Below the pieces are notes generated by a model that worked only from the letters and a program-made list of their open reading frames with translations, searched no databases and was not told the DNA's origin. A stretch of 64,000 nt of DNA, taken from Microbacteriaceae bacterium (GTDB lineage: Bacteria > Actinomycetota > Actinomycetes > Actinomycetales > Microbacteriaceae). Below are positions 20,349 to 24,146 of the stretch, one piece after another (the stretch's first letter is position 1; the number at the start of each line of letters is the position of its first letter). The DNA is taken from positions 186,001 through 250,000 of the forward strand of contig JANXTR010000045.1 in the NCBI GenBank assembly GCA_025352325.1. Direction: 5' to 3'. The position numbers were made by a program, and so were the translations under genes.

Positions 20349-22529
20349 ATGGCCACACCCGGCCGCAGTCCTGGAAGTAACAGTTCCCGCAACATCAAGT
20401 CCGGCAGTAAGACTGGCAGCCGTCAAGGCTCGCGCCGTGGCGCCCCGCAGCAGCAGCAGCGGCGTCGCCAGCACCAGGACGAAGCCGGTGTCATCCCGGT
20501 GCTCGCCCGCACGGTGCGCGCCATCGAGAACTCCGCCGAGCGCGGCAAGGTCAACCCGGCGAACCGCACCCGCTTCCGCGTCGTCGCGGTGCTGGTGCGC
20601 GAGGAGCGCGCCCGTATCAAGGGCGACAAGGAGCTCAGCGACGCCGAACGCGTCAAGGAGCTCACCCGCCTCGACGGCATCGCCACGATCATGGCGAAGA
20701 CCGCCGCCCGTGACACCACCCTCATCCAGCTGCTGACCGACAATGCGCCGCTCACTCCGGCCGCGCTCGAGATGCGCCGTGCCATGCTCATGGAGGCCGG
20801 TGGCGAGCTCAGCCCCGACGACCTGATCGTCGTCACCGAGGCCCCGGTCAAGCCGGCCGTGGAGGAGCGCCAAGTCGTTCCGCAGTCGGTGAAGCAGTTC
20901 CAGATGTCGAACCCGTTCCTGGCCCCCGACTTCTCATCGTCGAACGCTCCGGTCTCGACCACGAACCGTCTCGCGAACTGGGAGCTCATCGAGCCCCTCT
21001 TCCGCTCCTTCGAGGTCGGCGTCGGCGGGGTTGCCAGCATGGATCTGCCAGAGGCGCGCTCGCTCGCGACGCCCGGTGGCATCGAGCTGATGCGTCACCA
21101 GGCCCGCTTCATTGAGAGCGCCCGCGCGGGTCACCGCAGCTACCTGCTCGCCGACGAGCCCGGGCTCGGCAAGACCGCTCAGGCGCTGCTCGCCGCGAAT
21201 GTGACGAGCTCCTATCCGCTGCTGGTCGTCGTCCCGAACGTCGTGAAGGTCAACTGGGCCCGCGAGGTCGAGAAGTGGACGCCGCAGCGCGTCTCGACCG
21301 TCGTCCACGGTGACGGGGCCGACATCGACGCCTTCGCCGACGTCGTCATCGTCAACTACGAGGTGCTCGATCGGCACGTGGCCTGGCTGTCGCGTCGCGG
21401 CTTCAAGGGCATGGTCGTCGATGAGGCCCACTTCATCAAGAACAAGGACTCGCAGCGCTCCAAGAACGTTCAGGCTCTCTCGAAGAGCATTCGTGCGGTC
21501 ACGCCTAAGGCGCTGATGATCGCTCTCACCGGAACGCCCCTGATCAACCAGATCGAGGACTTCCGCATGATCTGGCAGTTCCTGGGCTGGATCGACGACA
21601 AGAAGCCGCTGACCGAGCTCATGCGCCGCCTCGAGGAGACCGAGCTGGATCCCGGTGACAACGGGTTCTTCCGTGCCGCGCGCGATTCCGTCGTCGACAT
21701 GGGCATCGTGCGTCGCAAGAAGGTGGACGTCGCTGCCGACATCCCTGCGCGTCGCGTCGCCGACATCCCGGTCGAGCTCGACGGCGAAGCCGGCCGCTCG
21801 ATCCACGAGGCCGAGGCCGCGCTGGTCACCCGACTCGTGGAGCGGTACCGCCGCGTCATCGCGACGCGTCCGGACTCCGACCCGGCAGACATCATCCGGC
21901 TGGTGGCCGCGGCGGAGCTCGAGGAGACCCGACAGGCGGGCGGTGACGGCAGCGGAGACAACGTCTTCACGATGGTCCGCAAGATCGGCCAGGCCAAGGC
22001 CACGCCCGCAGCGGACTACACGGTCAACCTGGCCAGGAACGTCGGCAAGGTGGTGTTCTTCGCGAAGCACATCGATGTCATGGACACCGCCGAGAAGCAC
22101 TTCGCTGCGGCTGGCCTCACGACCGTCTCGCTTCGCGGCGACCAGACCTCGAAGGCCCGTCAGCTGGCGATCGACTCGTTCACCAATGATCCGGATGTCG
22201 CGGTCGCGGTGTGTTCGCTGACCGCCGCCGGCGTCGGGGTCAACCTGCAGGCCGCGTCCAACGTGGTGCTCGCGGAACTGAGCTGGACCAACGCCGAGCA
22301 GACGCAGGCGATCGACCGCGTGCACCGCATCGGCCAGGAGCTGCCCGTCACCGCGTGGCGCATCATCGCAGCGGGCACGCTCGACGGCCGTATCTCGCAG
22401 CTCATCGACGCGAAGGCGGGCCTCGCGGCTCGCGCGCTCGACGGCGAGGCGGCGCTCGATGTGGCCGAGGGGTCCGTGCAGCTTGAGGCGCTCATCGCGG
22501 TGCTGACGGATGCCGTGGGGCAGCTGTAG
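20349..22529 (+). CDS. SNF2-related DEAD/DEAH-box helicase
   Basis: LLADEPGLGKTAQALLAA (Walker A), GMVVDEAHFIKN (DEAH), IALTGTPLINQ, QAIDRVHRIGQ. Confidence 0.93.
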   Translation: MATPGRSPGSNSSRNIKSGSKTGSRQGSRRGAPQQQQRRRQHQDEAGVIPVLARTVRAIENSAERGKVNPANRTRFRVVAVLVREERARIKGDKELSDAERVKELTRLDGIATIMAKTAARDTTLIQLLTDNAPLTPAALEMRRAMLMEAGGELSPDDLIVVTEAPVKPAVEERQVVPQSVKQFQMSNPFLAPDFSSSNAPVSTTNRLANWELIEPLFRSFEVGVGGVASMDLPEARSLATPGGIELMRHQARFIESARAGHRSYLLADEPGLGKTAQALLAANVTSSYPLLVVVPNVVKVNWAREVEKWTPQRVSTVVHGDGADIDAFADVVIVNYEVLDRHVAWLSRRGFKGMVVDEAHFIKNKDSQRSKNVQALSKSIRAVTPKALMIALTGTPLINQIEDFRMIWQFLGWIDDKKPLTELMRRLEETELDPGDNGFFRAARDSVVDMGIVRRKKVDVAADIPARRVADIPVELDGEAGRSIHEAEAALVTRLVERYRRVIATRPDSDPADIIRLVAAAELEETRQAGGDGSGDNVFTMVRKIGQAKATPAADYTVNLARNVGKVVFFAKHIDVMDTAEKHFAAAGLTTVSLRGDQTSKARQLAIDSFTNDPDVAVAVCSLTAAGVGVNLQAASNVVLAELSWTNAEQTQAIDRVHRIGQELPVTAWRIIAAGTLDGRISQLIDAKAGLAARALDGEAALDVAEGSVQLEALIAVLTDAVGQL

Positions 22530-22564
22530 CCGCCCGATCCTGACCGTGTGGTGAACAGCTCGCG

Positions 22565-22623
22565 AACTCTCAACCATCTAGCGAAACTTCACGGGTTGTC
22601 CGCGTTTCCAGGCTGAGTATTGT
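22565..22623 (+). promoter_or_regulatory. promoter module 1 (upstream element plus -35 TTGTCC, 16 bp, -10 TATTGT)
   Basis: CTCTCAACCATCTAGCGAAACTTCAC upstream; TTGTCC 22596-22601; TATTGT 22618-22623. Homologous, with identical spacing, to the module at 23063-23119. Confidence 0.55.
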
Positions 22624-22629
22624 CATGTC

Positions 22630-22995
22630 TACCGGAAGGCCGAACCGCAAGGTGAGGCACGAAAGTAACAGAAAGACCCTCGGGTCTCGACGAACCGCTC
22701 GCGCGGTGTTGGGCGGTGCTTGCACCGCTTGGCGCTGGTGCGGGGGGAACGCGGAACCGGGGGTCTTTCGTTTGAGCCCCTGTTCACCCCGCGTGCCACC
22801 CCTCCCGTTTGTACCCCGTTCTATCCGCAAAGCTGCGGACACCCGCTCTGGGGGCAGCGAATGCTTGATGGTCTCACTACATTCAGAAGTGCACTAGTTG
22901 GGGGACTAGCGGCGGCGGTGGTCAGTCACATCGCGTTCCGTCATACGGGGGTATTCACGGAACCGCGGACAGACCACCGCCGCCAGTATTTTCTT
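22630..22995 (+). ncRNA. candidate structured small RNA 1 with intrinsic-terminator-like 3' end
   Basis: Long-range stem GAAAGACCC (22671-22679)/GGGTCTTTC (22761-22769). Hairpins GCGGTGC-TT-GCACCGC (22713-22728), TCCGCA-AAGC-TGCGGA (22824-22839) and CTAGT-TGGGGG-ACTAG (22894-22909). A 13-bp perfect inverted repeat GGCGGCGGTGGTC (22911-22923)/GACCACCGCCGCC (22972-22984) is followed by AGTATTTTCTT. Confidence 0.5.
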
Positions 22996-23062
22996 CACCC
23001 AGGGCCCCCATCAGGTCGGCTCTCGCCCGCCGAGGTGCGCGACGGTTCAGCCGTCCGTGAAT

Positions 23063-23119
23063 CTCTCAACTCTCTAGTGAGAGTTGACCTATTGCGCGCT
23101 GTTCACGATTCGGTAGTGT
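23063..23119 (+). promoter_or_regulatory. promoter module 2 with palindromic operator
   Basis: TCAACTCTC-TAGT-GAGAGTTGA (23066-23087, 9-bp perfect arms); TTGCGC 23092-23097; 16 bp; TAGTGT 23114-23119; then CATGTCAACCGAAA, versus CATGTCTACCGGAA in copy 1. Confidence 0.55.
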
Positions 23120-23125
23120 CATGTC

Positions 23126-23565
23126 AACCGAAACAGCGCAACCCGAACATCCGTGGAGTAATCCGCGAATGCGACGGCCGCAGCCGGTGCTGAGAAGGCG
23201 ACGTTGGAGCGATGTCGCGGAGTGATCCGCGAGAGAGTTCCGGCGGCCGAGACCCCGCAGATCCGACGCTCCCATGTGTCGGGGACGCGGACGACCGGCG
23301 GCCCGATCGGCGCGCCGGAGTCAGCCGGATGGTGGCGGGGCTCTCATGCCCGCTGCCTCCCTGCCGACCGAGACGACGGAGGTCCCGCCACGTGTGGTGA
23401 TGACCGACGAACCGGATGCGGGCTCTCGCACTGCTGAACGAACGGTCCTGTGAAGGATGGTTCAGACGGCCGCTGCGGAGCTGCCCACCTCCCGAGAGCT
23501 CGCGGGGCGTGGCGCGTTGGATCGACCCACAGAAGTGCCCGGATTTCGCGACCCGGGCACTTCGT
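23126..23565 (+). ncRNA. candidate structured transcript 2 (sRNA or short-peptide mRNA)
   Basis: Follows promoter module 2. Hairpin CTGAAC..TCCT-GTGA-AGGA..GTTCAG (23434-23465). No convincing protein-coding gene before the 23532-23563 hairpin. Confidence 0.35.
23532..23563. terminator. hairpin terminator between convergent transcripts
   Basis: GAAGTGCCCGG-ATTTCGCGAC-CCGGGCACTTC, an 11-bp perfect stem just before the end of the minus-strand gene at 23598. Confidence 0.6.
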
Positions 23566-23597
23566 GTGTACAGGGGGTAGGCGAGCCGTCCGACCCC

Positions 23598-24146
23598 TCA
23601 GCGTGAGCTGTTCTCGGTGCGCCCCCGCACGATCCCGATGAAGGTCTCGACGGCCGGAGTGGTCGCGTCGATCGGCCAGACCAGGCTGATCCACGTCGAG
23701 GGCGAGTCGCGCAGGGGTCGGGCGATCACGTCGCGGCGGCCGAGCACCCGGGCGAGCGACTGCGGCATCCTGGCGATCCCGACGCCCGCGGCGACCAGCT
23801 CGAGAGTGTCGGCATCCTGACCAGGCAGGAGGTTCTCGCCGTCGAGGTCGTTCGGCGCGAGCCGTTCGCCAGCCTCGAGCGCGGCGAACAGGTGATCGCG
23901 CGAGGCGACGACGACGGGCAGCTCTTCATAGAGCCGGATGGCGCTGAACTCGTCGTCGGCGGCGGTGTCGCGCAGGAACGCCGCATCCGCGTCACCCCCG
24001 CGCAGAGCCTCGATCGCCTCCGCCGCCGAGGAGGGCCGCAGCTCGAGACGCTGCCGCCGCATCCGCTCGCGCCAGATGCGCTCCCATTTCGTCGGCGTGA
24101 CGCCTGGCACGAACGCCACGCGGAACGTCGGCAAAGGGTCGGGCAT
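23598..24146 (-). CDS. LysR-type substrate-binding domain protein without HTH
   Basis: MPDPLPTFRVAFVPGVTPTKWERIWRERM...GIARMPQSLARVLGRRDVIARPL; no N-terminal HTH. Divergent from DUF5997. Confidence 0.8.
   Translation of the reverse strand: MPDPLPTFRVAFVPGVTPTKWERIWRERMRRQRLELRPSSAAEAIEALRGGDADAAFLRDTAADDEFSAIRLYEELPVVVASRDHLFAALEAGERLAPNDLDGENLLPGQDADTLELVAAGVGIARMPQSLARVLGRRDVIARPLRDSPSTWISLVWPIDATTPAVETFIGIVRGRTENSSR

Follow-up and report, generated by a model that had tools for sequence, protein, structure and literature searches.

In Firmicutes, the C-rich sRNAs RoxS and FsrA are countered by a G-rich sponge RNA, RosA, whose transcription has a regulator dedicated to it (PMC8216469). Both RosA of B. 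subtilis and RsaI of S. aureus are stand-alone RNAs with at least two accessible G-rich regions that match C-rich regions of sRNAs. The 6C RNA of actinobacteria (RF01066; B11 in mycobacteria) is ~100 nt long and consists of two hairpins with homopolymer loops of C5-C6, the second hairpin being a GC-rich terminator stem. In mycobacteria, repression by 6C/B11 relies on its C-rich loops (PMC10470900; PMC12395582), and the RNA controls virulence-related traits (PMC10470900). Here we describe an intergenic locus of a Microbacteriaceae bacterium that probably encodes a small RNA with two G-rich loops, in a genome that also encodes 6C.

Within the 64-kb stretch of DNA analyzed (the window), the RNA span is preceded on its 5′ side by an SNF2-type helicase gene (20349-22529, plus strand) and followed on its 3′ side by a LysR-substrate-type gene (23598-24146, minus strand), both named from reading their translations. 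The locus is held by relatives that include Pseudolysinimonas, Protaetiibacter, Homoserinibacter and Schumannella (all Microbacteriaceae). The order of SNF2 gene, RNAs and an aminodeoxychorismate-lyase-like or LysR-type gene was seen again in most fetched loci, and the neighbors are different or not identified in some relatives. The nearest relative's record (L111) is named ‘Acidobacteria bacterium isolate G2_35’; its contig carries this Microbacteriaceae locus, and the public label looks wrong. Rfam gave no match at curated thresholds anywhere in the window; in 22400-23650, allowing E values up to 5 brought up no convincing one either. A generic consensus scan found neither a promoter nor a plus-strand terminator, so the RNA boundaries given below are based on comparison of homologs rather than on consensus matching; the predicted transcript ends follow -10 boxes and hairpins that are conserved.

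The initial annotation had described one candidate sRNA with several stems, a C-rich stretch and a terminator-type hairpin at its end. The pairing segments are where it placed them: GAAAGACCC (22671) and GGGTCTTTC (22761), GCGGTGC (22713) and GCACCGC (22722), TCCGCA (22824) and TGCGGA (22834), CTAGT (22894) and ACTAG (22905), and a 13-bp stem of 22911-22923 with 22972-22984, after which TATTTTCTT begins at 22987. CCCC occurs at 22777, 22787, 22799 and 22814 and nowhere else in 22601-23000, and the five G5-G6 runs start at 22742 (six), 22759, 22850, 22900 and 22947. Folding of 22630-22995, which the annotation had proposed as a check, gave -172.7 kcal/mol, more stable than chance (z = -4.0 versus shuffles), and a small-RNA sequence with a terminator-type hairpin at its end is supported. 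Folded alone, the parts score more strongly (22888-22999, z = -6.3; 22630-22775, z = -5.5).

What did not hold is the treatment of the span as a single sRNA. Homologs align as two blocks, and it is near certain that the span comprises two separate small-RNA genes, A and B, side by side, which would be transcribed independently. B occurs without a preceding copy of A in ~10 genomes (G151, G131, G328, G034, G142, G245, G197, G135, G242 and G335, the absence in G335 being judged only as far as the fetched DNA reaches). These genomes, and the fixed distances at which B carries an upstream element and a putative -10 box of its own, lead us to regard the two as separate units.

The gap that separates A from B (22774-22836, plus strand) contains all four CCCC; this gap is deleted or different in relatives and is not a conserved part of either RNA. 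Three of the four are absent from the nearest relative (G001, 75% identity over the locus). The fourth (TTGTACCCCG) recurs as a motif in the DNA upstream of B, and does so too in G131, where A is absent. In G034, where B lies ~70 nt after the SNF2 stop codon, there is no CCCC at all. Nor are the motifs likely to be unpaired: with A and B taken as a single transcript, multiplying the unpaired probabilities of the bases gives 0.003-0.10 per motif, so that no CCCC would be dependably single-stranded. The suggestion of a C-rich, multi-target anti-Shine-Dalgarno regulator fails because CCCC is not conserved in homologous loci, a lack that the annotation had itself named as telling against the idea. 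The likeness to C-rich sRNAs of the RsaE/RoxS type thus comes down to the CCCC letters in the gap, which differ from the motifs of that type in being unconserved and probably outside any mature RNA; conserved, unpaired C-rich motifs are not found at this locus. A single RNA of at least 325 nt that binds Shine-Dalgarno sequences through CCCC could arise by read-through from A to B, and the letters do exist, but with the motifs unconserved and sited in the gap, and with A and B separable, we consider it extremely improbable.

RNA A (22630-22773, plus strand), whose start is expected near 22630, is predicted to form a short 5′ hairpin and then a long terminator-type hairpin (22671-22769) with conserved internal loops (CUCGACGAAC / GGAACGCGG). 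It would end at this hairpin, closed by GAAAGACCC/GGGTCTTTC and of the form AGAAAGGCCC...GGGCCUUUCGU. Among 13 aligned homologs the stem carries double changes at five pairs. Upstream lies an imperfect palindrome, CTCAACCATCTAGCGAAACTT (22569-22589, plus strand), that is conserved before A and C (a third RNA, below) in relatives and, for A, has the form CTCAACYATCTAGYGARACTT. It is followed by a promoter-like pair read from the sequence (TTGTCC, 16 nt, TATTGT; 22596-22623, plus strand), which the generic scan did not call and which has the same arrangement in homologs. Allowing up to three mismatches, the genome has only two copies of CTCAACCATCTAGCGAAACTT, at 22569 and 23065, and a reversed control pattern also gives two matches. 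In one relative (G323, L050, 2613-2815, minus strand), at a locus that gave no SNF2 match, two near-identical A-like RNAs stand in tandem, each preceded by the upstream element in full.

The third RNA, C (likely ‘sRNA 2’), lies together with its upstream element in 23065-23566 and is kept in many relatives. Its upstream element, CTCAACTCTCTAGTGAGAGTT, is the same as that of A, and this copy (23065-23085) forms a near-perfect 20-bp palindrome, CAACTCTC-TAGT-GAGAGTTG. The 5′ end of C resembles that of A (ACCGA..GGCG..AACCCGA), and its end near 23566 reads GAAGTGCCCGG...CCGGGCACTTC.

RNA B (22891-22997, plus strand; ~105 nt) is an undescribed RNA family with no Rfam entry, and the literature on sRNAs in Microbacteriaceae or Clavibacter yielded nothing relevant. 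A covariance model (R1) was built from 20 homologs, and 32 homologous sequences are now aligned. Hairpin 1 (22894-22909, plus strand) consists of CTAGT, the loop TGGGGG and ACTAG, with a G5 that is invariant in 32/32 sequences and a stem that covaries (CUGGU/ACCAG and CUAGC/GCUAG are variants). Hairpin 2 (22911-22984, plus strand) has the 13-bp GC-rich base and an apical UAC-GGGG-GUA (22944-22953), within which CGGGGG is likewise invariant in 32/32. Helices 2-6 covary, 89.7% of pair cells are standard, and 27/34 pairs show double (compensatory) changes. The covariation score reaches 0.42, where shuffles give 0.143 (sd 0.010). Fitting of the alignment to the tested structure favors that structure, and slid controls are nevertheless far lower (≤0.091). 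These data make B well-supported as a structured RNA. A coding reading was rejected: homolog lengths fall into all three classes modulo 3, so B is not a reading frame, and in the L045 homolog the frame that opens at GUG, read by eye, meets an early stop.

The only invariant columns among the 32 sequences are the G5 of loop 1, the apical CGGGGG and a few basal-stem positions. As far as alignment and predicted fold tell, the conserved motif of the locus is the opposite of CCCC, namely GGGGG in two loops. In G023 the stems beside both loops have changed with compensation and both G5 are unchanged; genera g96 and g97 have lost hairpin 1 and retained its G5; and in genus g70 (G142, G245, G197 and G287) three extra G5-G6 runs follow B, of which one or two fall in predicted loops. 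Persistence through stem changes and hairpin loss, together with the extra runs in g70, argues that selection acts on the G5 letters themselves.

B was found in 31/400 family genomes and 10/85 genera by a coarse covariance-model scan. Closer inspection of 24 other genomes added a further copy, from G023 (genus g22); the coarse figure is therefore a minimum, and at least 11 Microbacteriaceae genera carry B. An order-wide search, with strict filters that undercount, returned B in the window's own genome only. B usually lies downstream of the SNF2 helicase gene.

Upstream of B, a putative -10 box, TACATT (22878-22883, plus strand), sits at a fixed offset: TANNNT stands at -23 to -21 relative to the first G5 in 29/31 genomes, and across the rest of the interval from -45 to -9, leaving aside -23 to -20, it occurs just once. 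Further upstream, GGACACCCGCTCTGGGGGCAG (22837-22857, plus strand) is a probable regulator site of this promoter, with its TGGGG 51-53 nt before the first G5 in 30/31 genomes (-51 to -53). In each of six genomes, the best match to this motif is the site before B. The B promoter is probably regulated. At 22810-22857, and upstream of B in relatives, TTGTACCCCG is followed by GTCC and GGACACCC-N4-TGGGGGCAG, which looks like an array of candidate regulator sites. GGGGTAC(A) also occurs upstream of 6C in G142, G245 and G197. A motif common to the upstream DNA of B and 6C was considered and set aside as insufficient, since GGGGTACA/TGTACCCC stand before both in just a few genomes (judged by eye).

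Could B be a mere conserved terminator or attenuator between neighboring genes, with no action in trans? The U-rich tail TATTTTCTT (22987-22995, plus strand) after the GC-rich stem is terminator-like and recurs in most homologs, and B always occupies a short intergenic region. Against this stand the -10 box and upstream element at fixed distances, the invariant loops, which termination does not need, and the homologs that have no U-tract; we judge this reading to be quite improbable.

A small RNA with conserved G5 loops raises the question of its partner. With a family-specific model, 6C (RF01066) was found in 31/31 genomes with B, with loops of the UUCCCCCCAA type; on first search the Rfam model had given only sub-threshold matches in the family. 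In the window's genome, 6C lies at C31:107354-107446 on the minus strand (L113) and has the loops GAUUCCCCCCAAUC and GUUCCCCCCAAUG. It scores 40.6 bits with the Rfam model, under the cut-off of 47, and was therefore missed at gathering thresholds; the family-specific model gives 105 bits. The UUGGGGG of B is exactly complementary to CCCCCAA of 6C, and the predicted loop duplexes range from -11 to -18 kcal/mol. The G5 of B are predicted to be accessible, with a mean unpaired probability of 0.69 (loop 1) and 0.89 (loop 2). The apical G5 is predicted to be mostly paired in three genus-g70 genomes and G242, and the first G5 is just 0.23-0.57 unpaired where hairpin 1 is lost.

With the G-rich sponges RosA and RsaI as our analogy, we tentatively propose that B titrates 6C, a possibility that we take seriously while rating it somewhat below even. 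Transcription of B would begin near 22891, driven by a promoter that is its own and probably regulated, and stop at the GC-rich hairpin of B, A having ended at its own hairpin (22671-22769), and B would present GGGGG in two hairpin loops. The most likely pairing partners of these loops are the CCCCC(C)AA loops of 6C, encoded elsewhere in the genome. B would thereby block the loops with which 6C acts on mRNAs, and 6C regulation would be relieved when B is made. The fuller version, in which B is a dedicated 6C antagonist with two to five GGGGG runs pairing with C6 loops and a promoter under its own regulator, is a shade more tentative. Conserved, accessible G-rich segments that match a C-rich sRNA of the same cell, as a sponge should have, are present (G5 in 32/32 sequences, 6C in 31/31 genomes). 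No sequence relation to RosA or RsaI is claimed: the phylum is another one, the proposed partner is 6C and not RoxS/RsaE and FsrA, the G5 of B sit in closed hairpin loops, and binding of B to its partner is predicted. The analysis shows separate units, the structure, the invariant G5 runs, 6C in each genome with B and the complementarity; we infer transcription, actual pairing of B with 6C and the regulatory outcome.

Complementarity of G5 to C6 is trivial in GC-rich genomes, which counts against a sponge. Co-occurrence of B and 6C was rejected as evidence for pairing and carries no weight, because 6C also occurs, with mostly the same loop flanks, in 26/34 genomes drawn from those without B in the coarse scan (a sample that includes G023, later found to have B). 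The base beside G5 in B and its partner base in 6C covary in one genus only (G142, G197 and partly G245); in G011, G034, G287, G135 and G242, B has changed with no matching change in 6C. That the flanks of the 6C loops do not track B would suit direct pairing of the G5 loops with C-rich stretches of mRNAs instead, as would the invariance of the loops, which fits any C-rich partner. On the other side, 6C is the known RNA with accessible C5-C6 loops in all genomes with B. To our knowledge, C-runs are not usual in ribosome-binding sites, which also counts against direct action on mRNAs, and we hold that alternative to be unlikely, if worth keeping in view. Titration of 30S subunits by G5 runs that mimic Shine-Dalgarno sequences is very improbable: pairing of GGGGG to CCUCC of 16S RNA would need a single wobble, but the predicted pairing of loop 1 (UUGGGGGA) is weaker than with the 6C loop (-8.4 versus -13.7 kcal/mol, for a typical 16S 3′ end taken from general knowledge), and the G5 sit in closed hairpin loops.

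Short invariant loops in a fixed helix frame with an asymmetric bulge would also be expected of a protein-binding site, through which B might titrate or recruit a protein as 6S and Ms1 do with RNA polymerase. Like these, B is an intergenic structured sRNA of an actinobacterium. It has no Rfam resemblance, is far shorter than Ms1 and lacks the large central bubble, and loss of hairpin 1 with retention of G5 is easier to reconcile with RNA pairing than with a protein that reads a shaped loop; a protein partner is thus decidedly unlikely in our estimation. Homology to Ms1 or 6S, which have a long hairpin with a central bubble (~300 nt in Ms1, 150-210 nt in 6S), was rejected on length, shape and neighbors. 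B is ~105 nt and A ~145 nt long, no long hairpin with a large central bubble is present here, where B has just a one-sided bulge of 4-5 nt, and the locus lies beside an SNF2 helicase gene rather than the HAD hydrolase/oxidoreductase found at Ms1. The families listed as having a predicted Ms1 do not include Microbacteriaceae (PMC9130861).

Membership of B in the 6C family was likewise rejected: 22400-23650 contains no 6C model match at E values up to 5, and the B loops are G5. The two RNAs are alike in length, in having two hairpins of which the second is a GC-rich terminator stem, and in their homopolymer loops; they differ in the letters of those loops and in their loci. Sponging of 6C is the best single mechanism for B, at a likelihood somewhat below even.

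Within the scope of a limited literature search, no RNA acting as a regulator of 6C is known to us. 6C is a widespread actinobacterial sRNA, and with a conserved G-loop RNA present in many Microbacteriaceae, its control becomes directly testable in soil strains that are harmless. If the proposed role of B is true, the partnership between C-rich sRNA and G-rich sponge would have arisen outside Firmicutes too.
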